24,125 nt of DNA from Nitrospinota bacterium (lineage in GTDB: Bacteria; JADFOP01), in the NCBI GenBank assembly GCA_022562795.1, contig JADFOP010000035.1, positions 1 to 24,125 of the forward strand, written 5' to 3'. The position numbers and the translations under genes are program-made. Below, in pieces: positions 3,598 to 10,420 of this stretch. Numbering within the stretch: the stretch's first letter is position 1; every line of letters begins with the position of its first letter. The notes under the pieces were generated by a model. The model did not search any database. It was not told the DNA's origin and saw nothing but the letters and a program-made list of their open reading frames with translations.

Positions 3598-4260
3598 CTA
3601 GGGCAGCAAGACCAGATCAATCTCCGTCCGTCGGTTTTCGGCTCGCCCTTCTCTAGTCTGATTGGTGGCCCGGGGACTCGACTCGCCAAGCCACTTAGTG
3701 GTGATGCGACTGCCGGCGACGCCCCTGTCTCGAAGCCAACGGGAAACCGCCAAGGTTCGGCGGCGGCTGAGGTCAACGTTGTAGATGTCAGACCCCTTCG
3801 AATCGGTGTGGCCGGTCAGCCGGACTACAAGCTCTGAGTTTCCTTGGAGCCGATCGAGAATTTGTTCCAGGACGGACACGGACCTGGGCTTGAGGATGTC
3901 TTTATCGAAATCGAAAAAGACGTCGTTTTCGAAGACCAGCTTCTCCACCAGCTCAGCGGGTGGGGGCGCAGAGGGGGCCTGACCCAAAGCGGCGAGGGCC
4001 CGGTCGGCGGCGGCTCGGGCGGGAATGGGCCGGCAGAAGTTGAGCTCCTTGACTGCCACATCGAGGTAAGACCATGCGCTCTCAACCTGAGCGTCCCCGA
4101 CCCCAGAAGCTTTAGCCTTTGAGATGGCCCTGCGAGTTTGGTCTATAGCAGACCGAGCAGCGTCGCGATCCATATAGAGGGTCGCACAGCCGGTCGCCAT
4201 AAATGCCGAGACCACCGCAAAAAATAGAAGGCGCTTCAAGGTCCGAGAGGCGTGCATCAT
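3598..4260 (-). CDS. OmpA/Pal-family peptidoglycan-associated lipoprotein
   Basis: A 220-residue protein from the ATG at 4260. Residues 1-24 form a lipoprotein signal (RTLKRLLFFAVVSAFMATG) with the acylated cysteine at C25. A helical linker (about 30-100) with a Pro-rich end (SAPPPAE) leads to an OmpA C-terminal domain (about 108-220). This contains VFFDFDKDILKP, TGHTDSKGSDIYNVDLS and RRRTLAVSRWL, with the Asp and Arg residues that bind peptidoglycan diaminopimelate in this family. It probably tethers the outer membrane to the cell wall. The start is chosen because GGAGGGAGAT directly precedes ATGATG. A longer frame back to 4389 begins inside the predicted -35 box. No tol genes are adjacent, so identity with Pal itself is not claimed. 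Confidence 0.88.
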   Translation of the reverse strand: MMHASRTLKRLLFFAVVSAFMATGCATLYMDRDAARSAIDQTRRAISKAKASGVGDAQVESAWSYLDVAVKELNFCRPIPARAAADRALAALGQAPSAPPPAELVEKLVFENDVFFDFDKDILKPRSVSVLEQILDRLQGNSELVVRLTGHTDSKGSDIYNVDLSRRRTLAVSRWLRDRGVAGSRITTKWLGESSPRATNQTREGRAENRRTEIDLVLLP

Positions 4261-4360
4261 ATCTCCCTCCATCAGTGCTATAGCATGAGCAGGCGATACC
4301 CGTGGACTGCAAGAGTACTCTCTAAAGTGTCCTGTAGAAGCTAAAAGTATATTATAGATG

Positions 4361-4389
4361 AGTATAGATATCCATAATAAATCGGTCAA
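4361..4389 (-). promoter_or_regulatory. Sigma-70-type promoter for the OmpA-family lipoprotein gene
   Basis: On the minus strand TTGACC (4389-4384) is separated by 17 bp from TATACT (4366-4361). This is close to consensus in both boxes. Transcription would start near 4354, giving a leader of about 95 nt before the ATG at 4260. A second AT-rich TATAAT-like stretch lies just downstream. Confidence 0.7.
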
Positions 4390-4479: not shown

Positions 4480-5115
4480 TCATCGCCTATTGACCGGCGG
4501 AAAGCTGAACGAGACACGCTGGTAGCCGAAATCGTAGATGATGTCTGCGCTCTGCGCGCCCGGCTTCTCGCGGGAGAATAAAAGCCAGCCGGAGAGGATG
4601 GAGTGTGACGGAATGCTCCCAACGAAGTAGCCATCGGCCGCGGTCGGCATCCCCCCTGTCGGGACGATAGCCCGATGCTCCTTCCCCTCCAGAAAGAGCC
4701 TCCAGGCGCCGTAATCGAAAGGGTGAGAAAGGTTTGCTCTGTGGTTGACCGCCACCACGCGAAATACTATGTAGTCTTCGACGAGGGAGGCAACCTGTCG
4801 GCGGTGAGAATCGTTGGCAAAAGGCACGAGGCCATCGGCTAGCAATTGAGGCGTAATCCACTGCACGTAAATGTCGAGCCATTCTCGCGGCCAAACCCCA
4901 AGCTTCGCCCCGACCGTGTTGTGATCGTGAGGAATGTCCCACCGCTGCCCCCAAACGTTGCTCTTCCCTTCGCTGGCGCAACCCCAACCGAGAGCGGCAA
5001 TCAGAAGAATGGGCAGCACCCATCTGGTGAGGCCGGGCGAGTTCGATGTGCTCCCCCTGCTCCAGATGTGCCCAATCAGTAACGGTTCCCATGCAATGTC
5101 TTGCAATACTCGCAT
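4480..5115 (-). CDS. Lipoprotein of unknown function with a rebuilt N-terminus
   Basis: The frame is 211 residues. A hydrophobic lipoprotein signal (WVLPILLIAALGWGC) ends at C46 and is followed by a soluble, aromatic-rich domain with no family I recognise. The first 28 residues (MRVLQDIAWEPL...) look nothing like a signal N-region, and they overlap the end of the GH130 gene by 40 nt. The codons for LTRWVLP to NVWG lie in the 83-bp repeat found again at 8516-8598, where a normal N-terminus (MIGDSR before LTRW) is preserved. Joining that start to this body would give an uninterrupted 189-residue lipoprotein. The present gene therefore seems to be the displaced body of a gene split by the cassette to its right. 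Whether it is still exported is uncertain. Confidence 0.65.
   Translation of the reverse strand: MRVLQDIAWEPLLIGHIWSRGSTSNSPGLTRWVLPILLIAALGWGCASEGKSNVWGQRWDIPHDHNTVGAKLGVWPREWLDIYVQWITPQLLADGLVPFANDSHRRQVASLVEDYIVFRVVAVNHRANLSHPFDYGAWRLFLEGKEHRAIVPTGGMPTAADGYFVGSIPSHSILSGWLLFSREKPGAQSADIIYDFGYQRVSFSFPPVNRR
4949..5031. repeat. 83-bp perfect direct repeat, left copy
   Basis: The 83 bases from CCCCAAACGTTG to CATCTGGTGAG are identical to 8516-8598 in the same orientation, offset by 3567 bp. They encode the signal-peptide and lipobox region of the minus-strand lipoprotein. Similarity stops abruptly on the right and fades after a few bases on the left (CGCT is also shared, with a one-base length difference in the C-run). 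Confidence 0.95.
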
Positions 5116-6269
5116 AAATAATTAACTAGGTTATCGAGATTGCAGCTCAAAAGGATTATGTATTTGTCGCCAGCTCCGGCATAGAGAATCAGCTTGTCTT
5201 TTCGAACCAAAACACCTATGGGAAAAACGACTGCAGGCACGTCCACTGAATACTGATCATTACCATGTAATTCGTAAGGTGCTGAAGGGATGTAGATTGG
5301 ATTTGTGGCTCGACAAAGCACCTTTCTTGGATCGTCCAGATCCAAAAGGGCAGCACATACGGAATATCCTCTTTCAATTTTCTCCGCCAACCCGTAGGCT
5401 TTACAAATGGTATCCCCTATCTCACCAACAGCATGATAGATGAGCAACCAACCTCTATCGGTTTTGATCACCTGGGTGCCTGGGCCGATTTTATCCCTTT
5501 CGTGCGGGTAGCGCCCGGCTTCTAAAAGCAGATTCTGGCTCCGACGCTCATAGATTTTCTCCCACTGTGCTATGTGCTTGGAAGGATTTAGTAATTGATC
5601 CATGCCAGCTTCGAGAAAACCAAGGTGAATGTTAGGATGGAAACGCAACAGCATGTAGTACTGGCCATTCACTGACTCGGGGAATGGAACTGCGTTGCGT
5701 GAATCGAAGGATTCGACCATGCCGTGATAGGTTATGTTCACGAAATCTTCAGTCGAGTAGATGGCTATCCGATCTGCGTTCGTGCCTTTGAACGGGGGGT
5801 TGATCTTACCACACCCAATCAGCAGGTATGTCTTGTCGCACTTGACGATCCGAATGTCTTCTATTCCATAGGTAAAGTCCTGATGGTCAGTGCCATCGCC
5901 CCGGATGACCACGTTCTGGAATCTGGTGAAATGGACGCCGTCCTCGCTCACCAGAGGCCAAACCTCAGAGATATAGTTTTCCAGACAGGTGCGCTCAATG
6001 CCAAGCTTTTCATCGAAGAACGTACCCTTCTTATACCCCTGGTGGCATCTCGGCGTCAGGATGACCTTGTCCTGGAATACTTCAGCCCCACCGTTGAAAA
6101 CGGCTCCGACCTTCAGTTCGCCGTTCTCGTACAAGGTGAGCCCGAGGTCTTGAGGCTTCACGATCGGATTATTTTCAAAGGGAGCCAGTTTAAAGGCCAC
6201 TTCGCCAGAGTCCAGCGAGACAACCGTTCCCTCACCTAATTTTGTGATGAAATTGTCAAGAGTCATCAT
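5076..6269 (-). CDS. GH130-family beta-mannoside phosphorylase or mannosidase-like protein
   Basis: A 397-residue protein. Landmarks of the five-bladed GH130 fold are present: FENNPIVKP (31-39), VFNGGAEVFQDKVILTPR (58-74), a SEDGVHFTRF strand (108-117), GIEDIRI (135-141) holding the likely catalytic Asp D138, and the KIGPGTQVIKTDRGWLLIYHAVG block. GH130 enzymes cleave beta-mannosides, mostly by phosphorolysis. Two positions differ from the usual motifs: the EDPR motif reads EDIR, and the strand normally reading KDAxLFP reads SRNAVPFP, so the substrate may be unusual. ATGATG at 6269 has a weak AGAG site. It starts 9 nt after the glycosyltransferase stop and is the last gene of the AT-rich cassette. 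Base composition is intermediate between the glycosyltransferases and the flanking genes. Confidence 0.85.
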   Translation of the reverse strand: MMTLDNFITKLGEGTVVSLDSGEVAFKLAPFENNPIVKPQDLGLTLYENGELKVGAVFNGGAEVFQDKVILTPRCHQGYKKGTFFDEKLGIERTCLENYISEVWPLVSEDGVHFTRFQNVVIRGDGTDHQDFTYGIEDIRIVKCDKTYLLIGCGKINPPFKGTNADRIAIYSTEDFVNITYHGMVESFDSRNAVPFPESVNGQYYMLLRFHPNIHLGFLEAGMDQLLNPSKHIAQWEKIYERRSQNLLLEAGRYPHERDKIGPGTQVIKTDRGWLLIYHAVGEIGDTICKAYGLAEKIERGYSVCAALLDLDDPRKVLCRATNPIYIPSAPYELHGNDQYSVDVPAVVFPIGVLVRKDKLILYAGAGDKYIILLSCNLDNLVNYLCEYCKTLHGNRY

Positions 6270-6278
6270 TTATCTCTT

Positions 6279-7370
6279 TTAACCACCCGAAGTTGCTGTC
6301 AGTCTTTTGATCAATTTCATGTATTCCTGGGCGATTTTTTCTTTAGAGTTCCGCGAGACATACTCTTCCGCCAGTTTTAACGTTTCATTGACGATAGGCT
6401 TTTCTTCAATTACGCTAATCAGTCTATCTTTAAGTTCTTCCATGTCCGAGAATTTCATGACCGCTCGGCCGAGAGGTTGGATATGGGGCGATTCTATCGC
6501 CAATATTGGGGTCAGCGTTCCAAGGTAGGAAAGGATGGAACTCGAAACCATAATCTCACCCGGTTTAAATTCAGATTTAGGTTTATAAAAAATATAGGCA
6601 TCTGAAGCGTGAAAATATCTATCGGTCTTTGGAGTCGGAGGCAATTCATCCCGCCATTCTATAAAATCATGTCTTTCTATCTCTTTTAGGAGTTCTTCAT
6701 CAAGGTACTCGCGTGCGATCACTAATAAGAGAACAAAGTCGTATTGCTTTCTCAACTCAACCAGATACGGTAGGAGGGCAAAGATGTGGGTTTTTGGATA
6801 CCAGCCGTACATAAACACGATTTTCGTGTCCAATGGTAAATTTAGCTCCAGTCTGCATTTATTCTTATCACCTCTTCTCACCGGGTTACAGGGATAGGGA
6901 ATTATGTGTATCCTTTCCTCGGGATATACCTCTTTCCACATCCGCTTATACATTTTATGAAAACAGACAACTGCATCCCATTTGAATTTCCAAAAAATAG
7001 GATTTTCTGGTAATTTAGTTTCATGGATGACATAAATGACTTTTGCTTTTTCTTTTATCTTCGGATATATTTTTATAAGTTCTTCGATAGGTATCCATTC
7101 TATTCTCTGGGTGATAAAAATATCGTAGTCTTTTTCTAAAAAAGGCTTTGGATCAAAAGTCCACTGACCTGATGATGTGCCCTGAACATTGCAACATCTA
7201 ATAACAAAATCTTCATCTGTTATTCCTTTCACTGGTTTGACATCATTAATAGGCGCAAAGACGGTCAGGTCATATTTTTGGGTCAATTCCCTACCGATTA
7301 GTTCAGCAAGAATAGAAGTTCCATCAGCCGCATTCCATTTTGAAAAAATCGCAACTTTAGTTTGGTTCAT
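6279..7370 (-). CDS. GT-B-fold (GT4-like) glycosyltransferase, second of a tandem pair
   Basis: A 363-residue protein. The N-terminal half resembles a GT-B acceptor domain beginning VAIFSKWNAADGTSILAELIGREL. The C-terminal half has the nucleotide-sugar side, with an IVFMYGWYPKTH strand at the domain join and a YFHASDAYIFYKP segment. It is clearly a paralogue of the upstream protein, sharing DEDFVIR, HE before the PE(D/N)P turn, IHxIPYP and HASDA at matching positions. Codon use is AT-rich (many AAA, ATA, TTT), unlike the trp genes, which suggests acquisition by transfer. Only 4 nt separate it from the upstream stop and there is no good ribosome site, so it is probably translated by coupling. 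The donor sugar cannot be read from sequence; mannose is a guess from the GH130 neighbour. Confidence 0.8.
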   Translation of the reverse strand: MNQTKVAIFSKWNAADGTSILAELIGRELTQKYDLTVFAPINDVKPVKGITDEDFVIRCCNVQGTSSGQWTFDPKPFLEKDYDIFITQRIEWIPIEELIKIYPKIKEKAKVIYVIHETKLPENPIFWKFKWDAVVCFHKMYKRMWKEVYPEERIHIIPYPCNPVRRGDKNKCRLELNLPLDTKIVFMYGWYPKTHIFALLPYLVELRKQYDFVLLLVIAREYLDEELLKEIERHDFIEWRDELPPTPKTDRYFHASDAYIFYKPKSEFKPGEIMVSSSILSYLGTLTPILAIESPHIQPLGRAVMKFSDMEELKDRLISVIEEKPIVNETLKLAEEYVSRNSKEKIAQEYMKLIKRLTATSGG

Positions 7371-7374
7371 AAAA

Positions 7375-8484
7375 TCAACGCAGGATACCCCTCAGCTTGC
7401 TGGGGGGTAATTCACTCCTTTGGTCTCCGATTAATTTTTCAAATAATCGTATAAATTTCTGGGCAATTCTTTCAGCTTTATTGTCTTCCAGAAAATCCTC
7501 TATTCTTTTGAGGTCGAACTTGTTTTGGAATAGATCAATGAGCTTGACTTTCATATCCTCAAAATCCAGATACTTCATGATTTCGTCTCCATATAGTTCA
7601 ACGTAGTTTGACTCGTGAAATAGGATAGGGCAACCGGAACCTAGAACTTGGCACACGGAACTTGACAGGACTGCTTTGTACTTCTTTGAGGATTCCCTAT
7701 GAATGAGCAATGCATCCGAAGCATGCAAGAAGTTATACAGCTCGTCTAAGGGAAGTGGCTTTACCTGAAGGTCTACAAAGTCGTATTTCTTTTTCGCTTC
7801 GCGCAATTCATCAACATTGCTTCCGGGATTGGCGATGATCACATATCTGAGAGGATATTCCTTAACGACGTCTTTTAGAGCGGGTAAAACAGAGACAAGA
7901 TCTTCTGGTCTAAAACCAAAGGAGAATACAATCTTTTCGTCCAGCGGGAGGCCCAGCTTTTTTCTCGCTTCCCCTTTATCACCAAGCTCGAGTGGATGGT
8001 AGGGATAGGGGATCATGTGAATCTTTTCAGCAGGGAAATATTTGACCAAGTTGTCTTTGTATCTCTGATCAAAACAGACAATAGTATCCCAGTCAAACTT
8101 ATAGTAAAGAGGATCTTCCGGGGCTTTGCCCTCGTGGACAACCTGAACGGTAACAGCTTTTTCCCTAATTTTTGGAAAGACCTCAAGTAATCTTTCTGCT
8201 GGTAATCTTTCTACATTTTGAGCAATAAAGACATCGTATTCTTCATTCAAAAGGGGAGAAGGATCAAAGAGGGTAGCCCGGGTGACTGGTATGACTTCAT
8301 CAACGCGAAAGTGTCTGATGACAAAATCCTCGTCTTTTTGAAAAGTCGGTCTGGCATCAGGGTGCTTTTGGGCGGAAAATATCCTGAGCTGGTGACCCAA
8401 TTTTACCCAAGCCCTCCCTACCAATTCCGCGTGGATGGAAGGCCCGTTAGCGGCATTCCAAAGACACATCATTCCTATTTTCAT
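7375..8484 (-). CDS. GT-B-fold (GT4-like) glycosyltransferase, first of a tandem pair
   Basis: A 369-residue protein starting MKIGMMCLWNAANGPSIHAE, the glycine-containing N-terminal loop of GT-B enzymes. Later features are FVIRHFRV, a VVHEGKAPEDP turn, IHMIPYPYHP, an IVFSFGFRPEDL strand at the start of the donor domain and HASDALLIH. It is paralogous to the following gene. A strong AAGGAG (8495-8490) stands 5 nt before the ATG and overlaps the TAA of the short upstream frame (8494-8616). That frame is the original start of the neighbouring lipoprotein, so this gene now probably uses the lipoprotein's promoter. The sequence is AT-rich compared with the chromosome around it. Confidence 0.8.
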   Translation of the reverse strand: MKIGMMCLWNAANGPSIHAELVGRAWVKLGHQLRIFSAQKHPDARPTFQKDEDFVIRHFRVDEVIPVTRATLFDPSPLLNEEYDVFIAQNVERLPAERLLEVFPKIREKAVTVQVVHEGKAPEDPLYYKFDWDTIVCFDQRYKDNLVKYFPAEKIHMIPYPYHPLELGDKGEARKKLGLPLDEKIVFSFGFRPEDLVSVLPALKDVVKEYPLRYVIIANPGSNVDELREAKKKYDFVDLQVKPLPLDELYNFLHASDALLIHRESSKKYKAVLSSSVCQVLGSGCPILFHESNYVELYGDEIMKYLDFEDMKVKLIDLFQNKFDLKRIEDFLEDNKAERIAQKFIRLFEKLIGDQRSELPPSKLRGILR

Positions 8485-8493
8485 CTTTGCTCC

Positions 8494-8616
8494 TTATACA
8501 GCCTCCTGGCCGCTTCCCCAAACGTTGCTCTTCCCTTCGCTGGCGCAACCCCAACCGAGAGCGGCAATCAGAAGAATGGGCAGCACCCATCTGGTGAGCC
8601 GTGAGTCACCAATCAT
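8494..8616 (-). pseudogene. Displaced 5' end of the lipoprotein gene, now a 40-residue frame ahead of the glycosyltransferases
   Basis: ATG at 8616 opens a frame beginning MIGDSRLTRWVLPILL, a complete lipoprotein signal peptide with lipobox Cys at residue 24. It continues through NVWG (end of the 83-bp repeat) and then ends after GSGQEAV with TAA at 8496-8494. The same signal region is repeated in the lipoprotein at 4480-5115. The likely reading is that this is the true start of that gene, cut off by insertion of the cassette. The TAA overlaps the AAGGAG of the next gene, so if still translated it would be a coupled leader peptide. GCTGTATAAGG occurs before both this ATG and the next one. Confidence 0.7.
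8516..8598. repeat. 83-bp perfect direct repeat, right copy
   Basis: Identical to 4949-5031. Together the copies bracket 5032-8515, which contains all of the GH130 gene and both glycosyltransferases. The length is far beyond the 2-14 bp target duplications of insertion sequences. Confidence 0.95.
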
Positions 8617-8772
8617 ACGAATGCCTTATACAGCGTCAATCTATTTACTGCTAAATCAATAGCGTATGCAACTGGCAACTGCTTTTAACGTAATACATGC
8701 ACCTGCTGGCTGGGAAGGTGAGCAGGGATATGGGTTAGCTTGTATGGGCGAAAACGCGTGCGCGCTATCTAC

Positions 8773-9051
8773 CTATCTTGAACTAAAAGTATTAGATGCA
8801 CACTGCTGGCGGACAAGTTCAATCATCCCTGAATATCTATCCGCCCACATACCGTCCCAACCATCGCTAAGCCGGTACTTCACGTGGCTCTGCTTGGCCT
8901 GCTGGAGCCATGAAAGAGCGTTCCCGCAGGTAGCTACACTTCTAGAGTTGACGATCGGCCGGGAATGATTAGAAGAATTTAGCTGATTAGCGCCCGCGCA
9001 GCCGCTTAATAGCAGTAAAGCGAGTGCGAGAAGCCAAATCCCTTTACTCAT
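8773..9051 (-). CDS. Small lipoprotein of unknown function
   Basis: A 92-residue protein from the ATG at 9051. MSKGIWLLALALLLLSGCAG is a textbook lipoprotein signal with lipobox LSGC and acyl cysteine C18. The mature part is a Ser/Asn-rich linker followed by a short domain (SRSVATCGNALSWLQQAK... to ...IELVRQQCASN) with two cysteines that could form a disulfide. I recognise no family. The frame is open back to 9147, but that start would bury the signal sequence. The ribosome site (CAGG) is weak. It is the gene preceding the split lipoprotein, 156 nt upstream of 8616. Confidence 0.7.
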   Translation of the reverse strand: MSKGIWLLALALLLLSGCAGANQLNSSNHSRPIVNSRSVATCGNALSWLQQAKQSHVKYRLSDGWDGMWADRYSGMIELVRQQCASNTFSSR

Positions 9052-9731
9052 GAAACCTGATTTTGGCTGGCTGTTTGTGTGGCTTATCCTGAAAAGATGA
9101 CTCTTGTCTGGACCTTTTTTATCGCTCTTCAAAGTAGATACCCCCATATTTACTCGAAGGCTGTTTTTAGACCCAACCAGTTTTCTGAAATTTTTTCCTC
9201 ATTAGCGCTAAACAAAAATCCATAACTAACGATAAGACACTACAGAGAAGGAGAGGTGGCTCTCCAAGCGGAGAATATGACTAAAAAAACACGAAGAAAC
9301 CGAAGAGATAGGCTTCATTGGGAGATGATCCTCCAACCTAAATGGGCTTCTAATGGAGACAAGAGTAACCCTTTGTACCTATTGTACCTAAACTTTTTCG
9401 ATGATCGGTTAAGTAACTGCCTAGGGAGGTGGGGAATAAAATAACCCCTAGGTTCGGTGGCCCAGTGCCCCCTGCACATGGGCTCTAATGCTGATTGTGT
9501 AGATATCCAATATACAATTTTTGCGGCGAAAAATCAAGTCAAACCTCTAACGCCATTCCTCTAAGGTGGCCAAAAAGCCTACTTCTTAAAATTTTAGCAT
9601 AAAATCCTAACATTTCGCTGTTTTCTACAACCCCCCATCCGCTACCCACCTCGGCATCCCTTCAAGAGAAACCGTTGCGTGGGGGACCAGGCTCAGTTAG
9701 GATATAGGGCTATCGGGCGGGAGGTTTGAGA
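9052..9731. other. Gene-poor spacer of about 680 bp with two adjacent hairpins
   Basis: No convincing gene is visible. A plus-strand frame of 62 residues at 9256-9444 follows AAGGAG but is Arg-rich, AT-rich and unlike any protein I know. Two inverted repeats stand side by side: CCTAGGG (9420-9426) with CCCTAGG (9446-9452), and a 9-bp stem with one bulged A at 9460-9483 (GCCCAGTGC with GCACATGGGC around a CCCCT loop). They could be part of a structured RNA or remnants of mobile DNA. A GGAGAG/CTCTCC hairpin lies at 9250-9265. Confidence 0.5.
9675..9703 (+). promoter_or_regulatory. Weak promoter candidate for the small membrane protein
   Basis: TTGCGT (9675-9680), a 17-bp spacer and TAGGAT (9698-9703) lie about 29 bp before the GTG at 9732. 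The boxes match the consensus only moderately, and the spacing and position are what make it plausible. Confidence 0.35.
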
Positions 9732-9902
9732 GTGAACACGTACCAGATGGTCGTGTGCGGATCTGCAGTTATTGTGACAAGCCTGGTTGTAGGAGCCAGC
9801 TATCGCTCCACCGGAGGGCTTGAAATCAAAGCGCTCCTCATCTTGGCGGGCATTGTCACCGCCGCAGCCATGTTTTATTCCATCCTGGGCGATAAAGACT
9901 GA
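9732..9902 (+). CDS. 56-residue two-helix membrane protein
   Basis: A short gene starting GTG at 9732 with GGGAGG about 8 nt before it and ending TGA at 9902. The product reads MNTYQMVVCGSAVIVTSLVV, then a polar turn (GASYRSTGGLEIK), then a second hydrophobic stretch (ALLILAGIVTAAAMFYSIL) and GDKD. It would form a helical hairpin in the inner membrane with a short loop. The coding evidence is the good ribosome site, GC-rich codons and the clean hydrophobic-polar-hydrophobic layout. It is alone between the lipoprotein and the regulator. The family is unknown to me; small proteins of this type often modulate larger membrane complexes. Confidence 0.6.
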   Translation: MNTYQMVVCGSAVIVTSLVVGASYRSTGGLEIKALLILAGIVTAAAMFYSILGDKD

Positions 9903-10042
9903 GAGAGTGGAGAATGTTTTAGCGAAACATTATGCTCAGCTTACCGATGCCGCTTTCAGCCCTTCATCGCGAAATTTACCCTCCCGATGAATGGCAACTC
10001 ACATAAGCATGAGAGGAAGCAACTTAGAATTTCAAAAGATTA

Positions 10043-10420
10043 TCACTTTCGATCCAGCTTTTTGAGAATGGCCAGGGCCCCGGCGTTGTCATCGAAAAGC
10101 CTTTGCAGTGTTCGAATTACCGATCGTCTTTTGGCTTTTGATAGGCCTTTTAAATGAGTTTCCAGAGATTTGGGAGGACGCGGACTGGGGCGATGGAAGA
10201 ATTGGTGGAGCTCAATATTGTAGCACTCAGCTAGTTTCTCTAACACCTCTACGTTCGCCCGACGATTGTTTTTTTCCAGCTGGCCCAAGTACGATGCGTT
10301 AACACCCGTCTTGGCTGATACTTTATCGAGCGAGAGCTTCCGCTCTAATCTTAATTCCCTCATCCTCTTGCCAATGTCATATCGTACCATCTTCTTTAAC
10401 CCTTTGCTCGACTCAAACAC
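10043..10420 (-). CDS. XRE/Cro-CI-family helix-turn-helix transcription regulator
   Basis: A 125-residue protein. Residues 16-70 form an XRE-type helix-turn-helix: IGKRMRELRLERKLSLDKVSAKTGVNASYLGQLEKNNRRANVEVL..., with the recognition helix around NASYLGQLEKN. A linker (HRPSPRPPKS) leads to a short basic C-terminal helix pair (SKAKRRSVIRTLQRLF). Such proteins bind palindromic operators as dimers and often repress themselves. The start given is GTG at 10420, behind AGGGA; an ATG at 10390 (MVRYDIGKRM...) is an equally reasonable start. The gene is isolated, and a perfect palindrome (10427-10440) lies directly upstream. Confidence 0.85.
   Translation of the reverse strand: MFESSKGLKKMVRYDIGKRMRELRLERKLSLDKVSAKTGVNASYLGQLEKNNRRANVEVLEKLAECYNIELHQFFHRPSPRPPKSLETHLKGLSKAKRRSVIRTLQRLFDDNAGALAILKKLDRK

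Follow-up and report, generated by a model that had tools for sequence, protein, structure and literature searches.

The window analyzed here, a complete contig (C35; 24,125 nucleotides) of a Nitrospinota genome bin (2.15 Mb in 84 contigs, 97% complete), contains a three-gene sugar operon of foreign origin that lies between two copies of an 83-bp direct repeat at the 5' end of a signal-peptide gene. The bracketed DNA behaves as a discrete, cassette-like unit, and both of its junctions appear to coincide with landmarks of integron attC sites. We tentatively propose that the operon is an integron-derived cassette that was captured off-target and in which a copy of the target sequence took the place of attC. 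This reading explains the two junctions most economically, but our confidence in it is at most moderate, because the genome lacks integron machinery and a search for an empty site gave none.

An earlier reading of the window, made from its letters (the sequence-only reading), had reported a perfect repeat bracketing a sugar-gene cassette, possibly mobile, that split a lipoprotein gene. The two repeat copies do match at 83 of 83 positions in the same orientation, no longer repeat occurs in the window, and the whole 2.15-Mb bin contains just these two copies, both at this locus. Deleting one repeat unit with a script yields an open frame of 189 codons that starts at the ATG at 8616, as had been reported. 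The insertion lies at a signal-peptide gene, although "split" is too strong a word, because the downstream gene copy still encodes the complete mature protein with a new start; the 5' end of the target was duplicated, not destroyed. This downstream copy encodes 211 amino acids, keeps the hydrophobic signal-peptide core, the cysteine, and the entire mature protein, and begins at an ATG (5115) inside the third operon gene, with whose final 40 bases it overlaps. The lipoprotein label is soft, since the lipobox (ALGWG^C) is not canonical and the protein matches no family. The uninterrupted gene, sought in related genomes as had been suggested, did not turn up: the target gene is an orphan without a homologue among 386 genomes, its phylum comprises three genomes only, and for this reason no empty site was found.

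The operon encodes two glycosyltransferase-like proteins (GT1 and GT2) followed by a GH130-family enzyme, with spacings of only 4 bp (GT1-GT2) and 9 bp (GT2-GH130). A composition check agreed with the claim that this DNA is richer in A+T than its surroundings: G+C content at third codon positions (GC3) is 0.39 in GT2, 0.45 in GT1, and 0.56 in GH130, versus 0.62 to 0.77 in most flanking genes, the exceptions being two small genes at 8773-9147 (0.50) and 10043-10420 (0.54). Relatives of the GH130 gene turned up at 36 loci in many phyla, archaea included, when GTDB genomes were scanned. In one metagenome-assembled genome (MAG) of Methanophagales (L028), the GT1 and GT2 proteins are 88% and 94% identical to those of the window, and in another (L016), identity is about 80% for each of the three genes. 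Trees are at odds with taxonomy, with the caution that the sequences are MAG contigs. These comparisons indicate that the same three-gene operon has been transferred across bacteria and archaea. Plasmids and viruses, searched as possible carriers of the operon, gave no match.

Other genomes also show that the unit moves as a block. Three MAGs (L025, L027, and L029) share GT1-GH130 units that are 93 to 95% identical over 2.3 kb in unrelated surroundings, and the homology stops a few bases outside the first start codon and the last stop codon. The module, which the sequence-only reading had considered possibly mobile, does occur elsewhere, in bacterial and archaeal MAGs, as a compact, promoterless unit of open reading frames (ORFs) ending at the operon edges. 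In the window, DNA homology to other genomes is confined to 5065-8509, and the repeats abut this unit, beginning at 5031 and 8516. The window copy is itself a mosaic, with 89% nucleotide identity to L028 across GT1-GT2, whereas its GH130 gene is 74% identical to that of L028 and 84% identical to that of a Dehalococcoidia MAG (L019). At 3.4 kb and three genes, it is long for an integron cassette.

The link to integrons comes from L019, where the sequence after the GH130 stop codon runs ...GATTGGGCACATC and then GCCTAACAACGGGTAAAAAG...CTTCTTTTATCCGCAAAACGTTATAA, with the R''-L''...L'-R' layout of an attC site. This site (GCCTAAC...AAAACGTTATAA) stands directly 3' of GH130, and there are three attC-like sites in all (2190-2285, 2918-2960, and 4223-4264), the two extra copies lying within 2.1 kb. 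The glycosyltransferase and GH130 genes are the first visible cassette of this attC array, and we conclude that the L019 module sits in a cassette array. Members of the same attC family are present in 11 of the 24 genomes searched, from several phyla and including the archaeal L028 genome; they keep the TAAC/GTTA ends and show compensating changes there (CCTAAC/GTTAGG, ATATAAC/GTTATAT). A site of this family also follows GH130 by about 100 bp in L042, an attC of another type lies by the operon in L022, and L017 has an attC-like right end (...GGGAACG^TCAGGCG) 39 bp ahead of the GT1 start codon.

Both junctions of the window cassette appear to fall on landmarks of such sites. At the right end, the window follows the L019 sequence through ...GGGCACATC and departs from it where the R'' motif GCCTAAC begins (5065/5064). 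On the host side, the junction AACG^TTTGGGG resembles the attC right-hand core AACGTTAGGCG with two mismatches, and AACG^TT lies 38 bp upstream of the GT1 start. Counting both strands, only four distinct sites in the 24 kb match this core as well. The part of the attC from R'' to the crossover is missing, and in its place stand a 33-bp filler and 76 bp of the target gene ending in AACG; these 76 bp and the next 7 bases, shared by chance or descent, make up the 83-bp repeat.

We infer that an integrase took part in the insertion and that events ran in the following order. The promoterless operon would circulate among bacteria and archaea of anaerobic subsurface and seep settings, partly as an integron gene cassette, and would have been captured off-target at AACG^TTTGGGG within the 5' end of the orphan gene. 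During or after capture, the cassette attC would have been lost from its first base (R'') onward; 76 bp copied from the host sequence to the left of the crossover would have taken its place and, together with the 7 bp shared at the junction, would give the 83-bp repeat. The likely chemistry would be either recombination that used R'' in place of R' or mending of an attC hairpin from an empty sister chromosome; attC hairpins can be cleaved by SbcCD or can stall replication, and replicative resolution has been described (PMC8946536). The outcome would be one transcription unit, and the locus can indeed be read as a single operon consisting of a 40-codon leader, GT1, GT2, GH130, and the re-started target gene, which a promoter-like site at 8639-8612 could drive as a whole. 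A crossover between the repeats could delete the cassette and would restore the 189-residue gene, so that the loss envisaged by the sequence-only reading stands in principle only; phase variation at the locus is conceivable.

Several observations weigh against off-target capture of an integron cassette. Structural scans found no attC at the window cassette, no site of the L019 attC family was matched in the window's genome (G000), and the 97%-complete bin contains no integron integrase (best TIGR02249 score of 83 bits, versus a cut-off of 265). The 83-bp repeat itself forms no hairpin (z 0.45) and folds no better than its shuffles on either strand, although RNA parameters had hinted at a hairpin; we therefore rejected a reading of the repeat as an attC-like hairpin. 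The matches of the junctions to attC landmarks were noticed post hoc, the host site was picked after the fact, and its GTTTGGG departs from the GTTRRRY motif at two positions. Extra assumptions are also needed for the 33-bp filler and for the 7 bp that are shared past the crossover. Among the relatives, attC-like sites adjoin the operon only in L019, L042, L022, and, on the 5' side, L017, and most copies have none. By energy alone the attC folds are unremarkable (z -1.33 in L022 and -0.38 in L019), and the case for these sites therefore rests on conserved layout and recurrence.

A simpler repair event is possible and nearly as likely. A staggered or processed double-strand break could have taken up a linear fragment of the operon, with fill-in or template switching duplicating 83 bp. 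Such capture needs no recombinase, which fits the absence of an integron integrase from the genome, and it accounts for both the arbitrary length of the duplication and the filler; most relatives likewise lack an attC and differ in their flanks. What break repair leaves unexplained is that the end of the cassette coincides with the first base of an attC, that the host junction falls on a site resembling an attC core, and that a compact unit with edges at the operon start and stop has moved repeatedly.

Direct repeats around the operon raise a third potential origin, namely that they are the attL and attR of a small island without its own integrase, moved in trans by a tyrosine integrase and bringing along a substitute 5' end for the gene. 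It is typical of attL/attR that direct repeats of about 83 bp leave the target gene intact, and the genome has XerC/D-like tyrosine recombinases. Direct repeats likewise flank the operon in two close relatives: not counting the window, 2 of about 25 loci have repeats of 60 bp or more with 90% or higher identity, versus none of 186 control intervals (Fisher p 0.014). In L017 (JAUXAN010000078.1, 1-4344; a k141 contig with a coverage of 226.8), the two ends are identical over 141 bp, GT2 is broken, fragments of two RAYTs (transposases associated with repetitive extragenic palindromic [REP] elements) lie on the flanks, and the end element recurs in the genome; this contig may be a 4203-bp circle, a tandem unit, or a unit bounded on each side by a copy of a REP/RAYT-derived element. 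In L018 (Candidatus Tariuqbacter), a 97-bp repeat (92%) at 1-97 and 4276-4372 belongs to a dispersed family of that genome. The repeats of the window, L017, and L018 are, however, host sequences with no relation to one another (respectively the end of a gene, a REP/RAYT-derived element, and a dispersed repeat), and we rejected direct repeats as a shared feature of the operon copies, given that besides the window only L017 and L018 have them and both of these are dispersed repeats. The target sequence also occurs nowhere else, either in the bin or in the 386 genomes, and the 3.5 kb contain neither an integrase nor a remnant of one. The window does resemble cis-mobilizable elements and integrase-less islands in its terminal direct repeats, its recombinase-free cargo, and a target gene kept open, and it differs from them in having no att relatives and no integrase remnant. 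We consider this origin unlikely.

An assembly artifact, in which a cassette contig of a different organism was wrongly joined into the gene, is improbable. In its favor, the window makes up an entire MAG contig, and the cassette is foreign in composition, with close relatives known from other MAGs. A false join, however, needs sequence shared at both ends, so that the gene fragment would already have been attached to the cassette; moreover, assemblers do not usually work with a word length of 83, whereas the 141-bp ends of the k141 contig do match such a length, and the junctions make genetic sense, with a stop codon beside a ribosome-binding site. A DNA transposon or insertion sequence was rejected: the interval contains neither integrase nor transposase (ORF list and Pfam search), as had been claimed, an inverted-repeat search found none at its ends, and the duplication is 83 bp instead of short. 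Retro-insertion, in which a reverse transcriptase would have copied the operon mRNA into the gene by target-primed synthesis with an 83-bp target-site duplication, would suit the promoterless unit, its edges tracking the coding region, and the long duplication, yet it is very improbable, as the L019 tail with its attC is DNA-level evidence for a different route and no reverse transcriptase or tail turned up nearby (neither was searched for).

Off-target capture with exchange of the attC has partial precedents among known integron cassettes. In delta-attI-type cassettes, such as blaOXA-10 with delta-attI1, the attC is replaced by target sequence of variable length, and recombination at R'' has been proposed (PMC12901181). 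The window cassette is similar in having no attC and target-site sequence on both sides, and differs in that its target is a chromosomal protein-coding gene (the orphan 5' end) and not attI, that 76 to 83 bp were copied, that there is a 33-bp filler, and that the genome has no integrase. Off-target capture of cassettes at GTT cores is established, with the motif GTTRRRY (PMC10127599); secondary-site insertion goes back to Recchia and Hall 1995, as cited there, and attG sites to Loot et al. 2024, as cited in PMC12901181. The window resembles such cases in its proposed off-target capture at a putative chromosomal GTT core and in the same orientation of host gene and cassette, whereas classical secondary-site insertion keeps the 3' attC and makes no duplication. 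Integrons occur in archaea, and cassettes shared by archaea and bacteria have been reported in MAGs (Ghaly et al. 2022, PMC9668308), a sharing that our operon parallels; the main text of that paper mentions neither glycosyltransferases nor Methanophagales.

It is possible, although we regard it as doubtful, that the locus represents a "delta-attG" cassette: capture by integron machinery would have placed a cassette within an ordinary chromosomal gene, with its attC swapped for a copy of the target and the target protein still encoded, fixing an archaeal-type sugar operon in an integron-free bacterium in a form removable via the repeats. If so, integron cassettes would have a route to settle permanently in integron-free genomes by trading their attC for a target copy, with a searchable signature, a cassette that ends at R'' with a target copy behind it. 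In addition, the locus documents a specific metabolic operon crossing between archaea and bacteria.

Table 1. Features of the cassette locus in window coordinates
Feature	Position	Strand	Basis or remark
Mobile unit (DNA homology to cassettes in other genomes)	5065..8509	-	blastn limits
Repeat copy A	8516..8598	-	Signal-peptide gene 5' end, upstream of cassette; 100% identical to copy B
Repeat copy B	4949..5031	-	Downstream of cassette; runs on into remainder of signal-peptide gene
AACG^TTTGGGG junction	8516..8526 (also 4949-4959 in copy B)	-	Resembles attC right-hand core, 2 mismatches
33-bp filler	5032..5064	-	Cassette end to copy B; L019/L018 instead continue GCCTAAC/GCCTGAT (sequence comparison)
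GT1, glycosyltransferase-like, 369 aa	7375..8484	-	88% identical to Methanophagales MAG protein
GT2, GT1 paralogue, 363 aa	6279..7370	-	94% identical to Methanophagales MAG protein
GH130-family mannoside phosphorylase-like enzyme, 397 aa	5076..6269	-	Pfam PF04041, 120.6 bits
Truncated upstream target-gene copy	8494..8616	-	40 codons; TAA beside GT1 ribosome-binding site (translation)
Downstream target-gene copy	4480..5115	-	Whole mature part; new N-terminus from ATG 5115 (ORF list, translation)
Promoter-like TTGACG-16-TATGAT	8612..8639	-	Ahead of target gene; consensus match only, not above chance overall

The function of the operon we infer from its protein families and from the neighbors of its relatives. 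The GH130 assignment is secure by its Pfam match, as the sequence-only reading had it, while the two glycosyltransferase assignments are less well supported: GT1 reaches only 17.1 bits for Glyco_transf_4, under the cut-off, GT2 has no Pfam match, and comparison of either with solved structures gave nothing meaningful. GT1 and GT2 are 37 to 39% identical to each other and are thus paralogues. The solved structures closest to the GH130 protein are those of phosphorylases acting on 1,2-beta-oligomannan and beta-1,2-mannobiose. It shares its fold family and best sequence matches with the beta-1,2-mannoside phosphorylases of GH130 (Teth514_1788/1789, Lin0857), yet it is distant from all characterized members (NCBIfam scores of 118 to 123 bits, versus cut-offs of 450 to 550).

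In two relatives (L020 and L024), the module adjoins a gene for a bifunctional inositol-1-phosphate cytidylyltransferase/inositolphosphotransferase, remnants of which are present in L018 and L030, and in L028 it adjoins a myo-inositol-1-phosphate synthase gene. The operon probably serves a beta-mannoside chemistry that is connected with inositol phosphates, and one may reasonably guess at a mannosylated inositol-phosphate solute or lipid as its product. The surface glycan suggested by the sequence-only reading may also be the product, as one option among others.

Other observations concern the relatives and the rest of the window. In L025, a RAYT fragment lies about 100 bp downstream of GH130, and a 128-nt inverted repeat at 10074-10201 (GTCTAACG...CTGTTAGCT), 6 kb from the cassette, resembles a long attC. 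At another locus (L047), a CRISPR-like array at 4607-4879 (GTGTAAAAAGGAGACCCGACTTATAGGGGATTGAAACG) lies near a GH130 gene with its middle part missing. A genome of the same class (G002) was tried for a comparison of synteny and set aside, as its contig covers trp genes only. In the window, the region adjoining the insertion (8773-10420) holds the two small genes of low GC3 mentioned above, a second small signal-peptide gene and a helix-turn-helix gene, together with a long stretch without clear genes, and is perhaps further acquired DNA. Around an AbiEii-like nucleotidyltransferase gene (267-821), a repeat of the CCGCCTCAGGCGGG type occurs in inverted and direct copies, at 228-270 and at 1247-1281.

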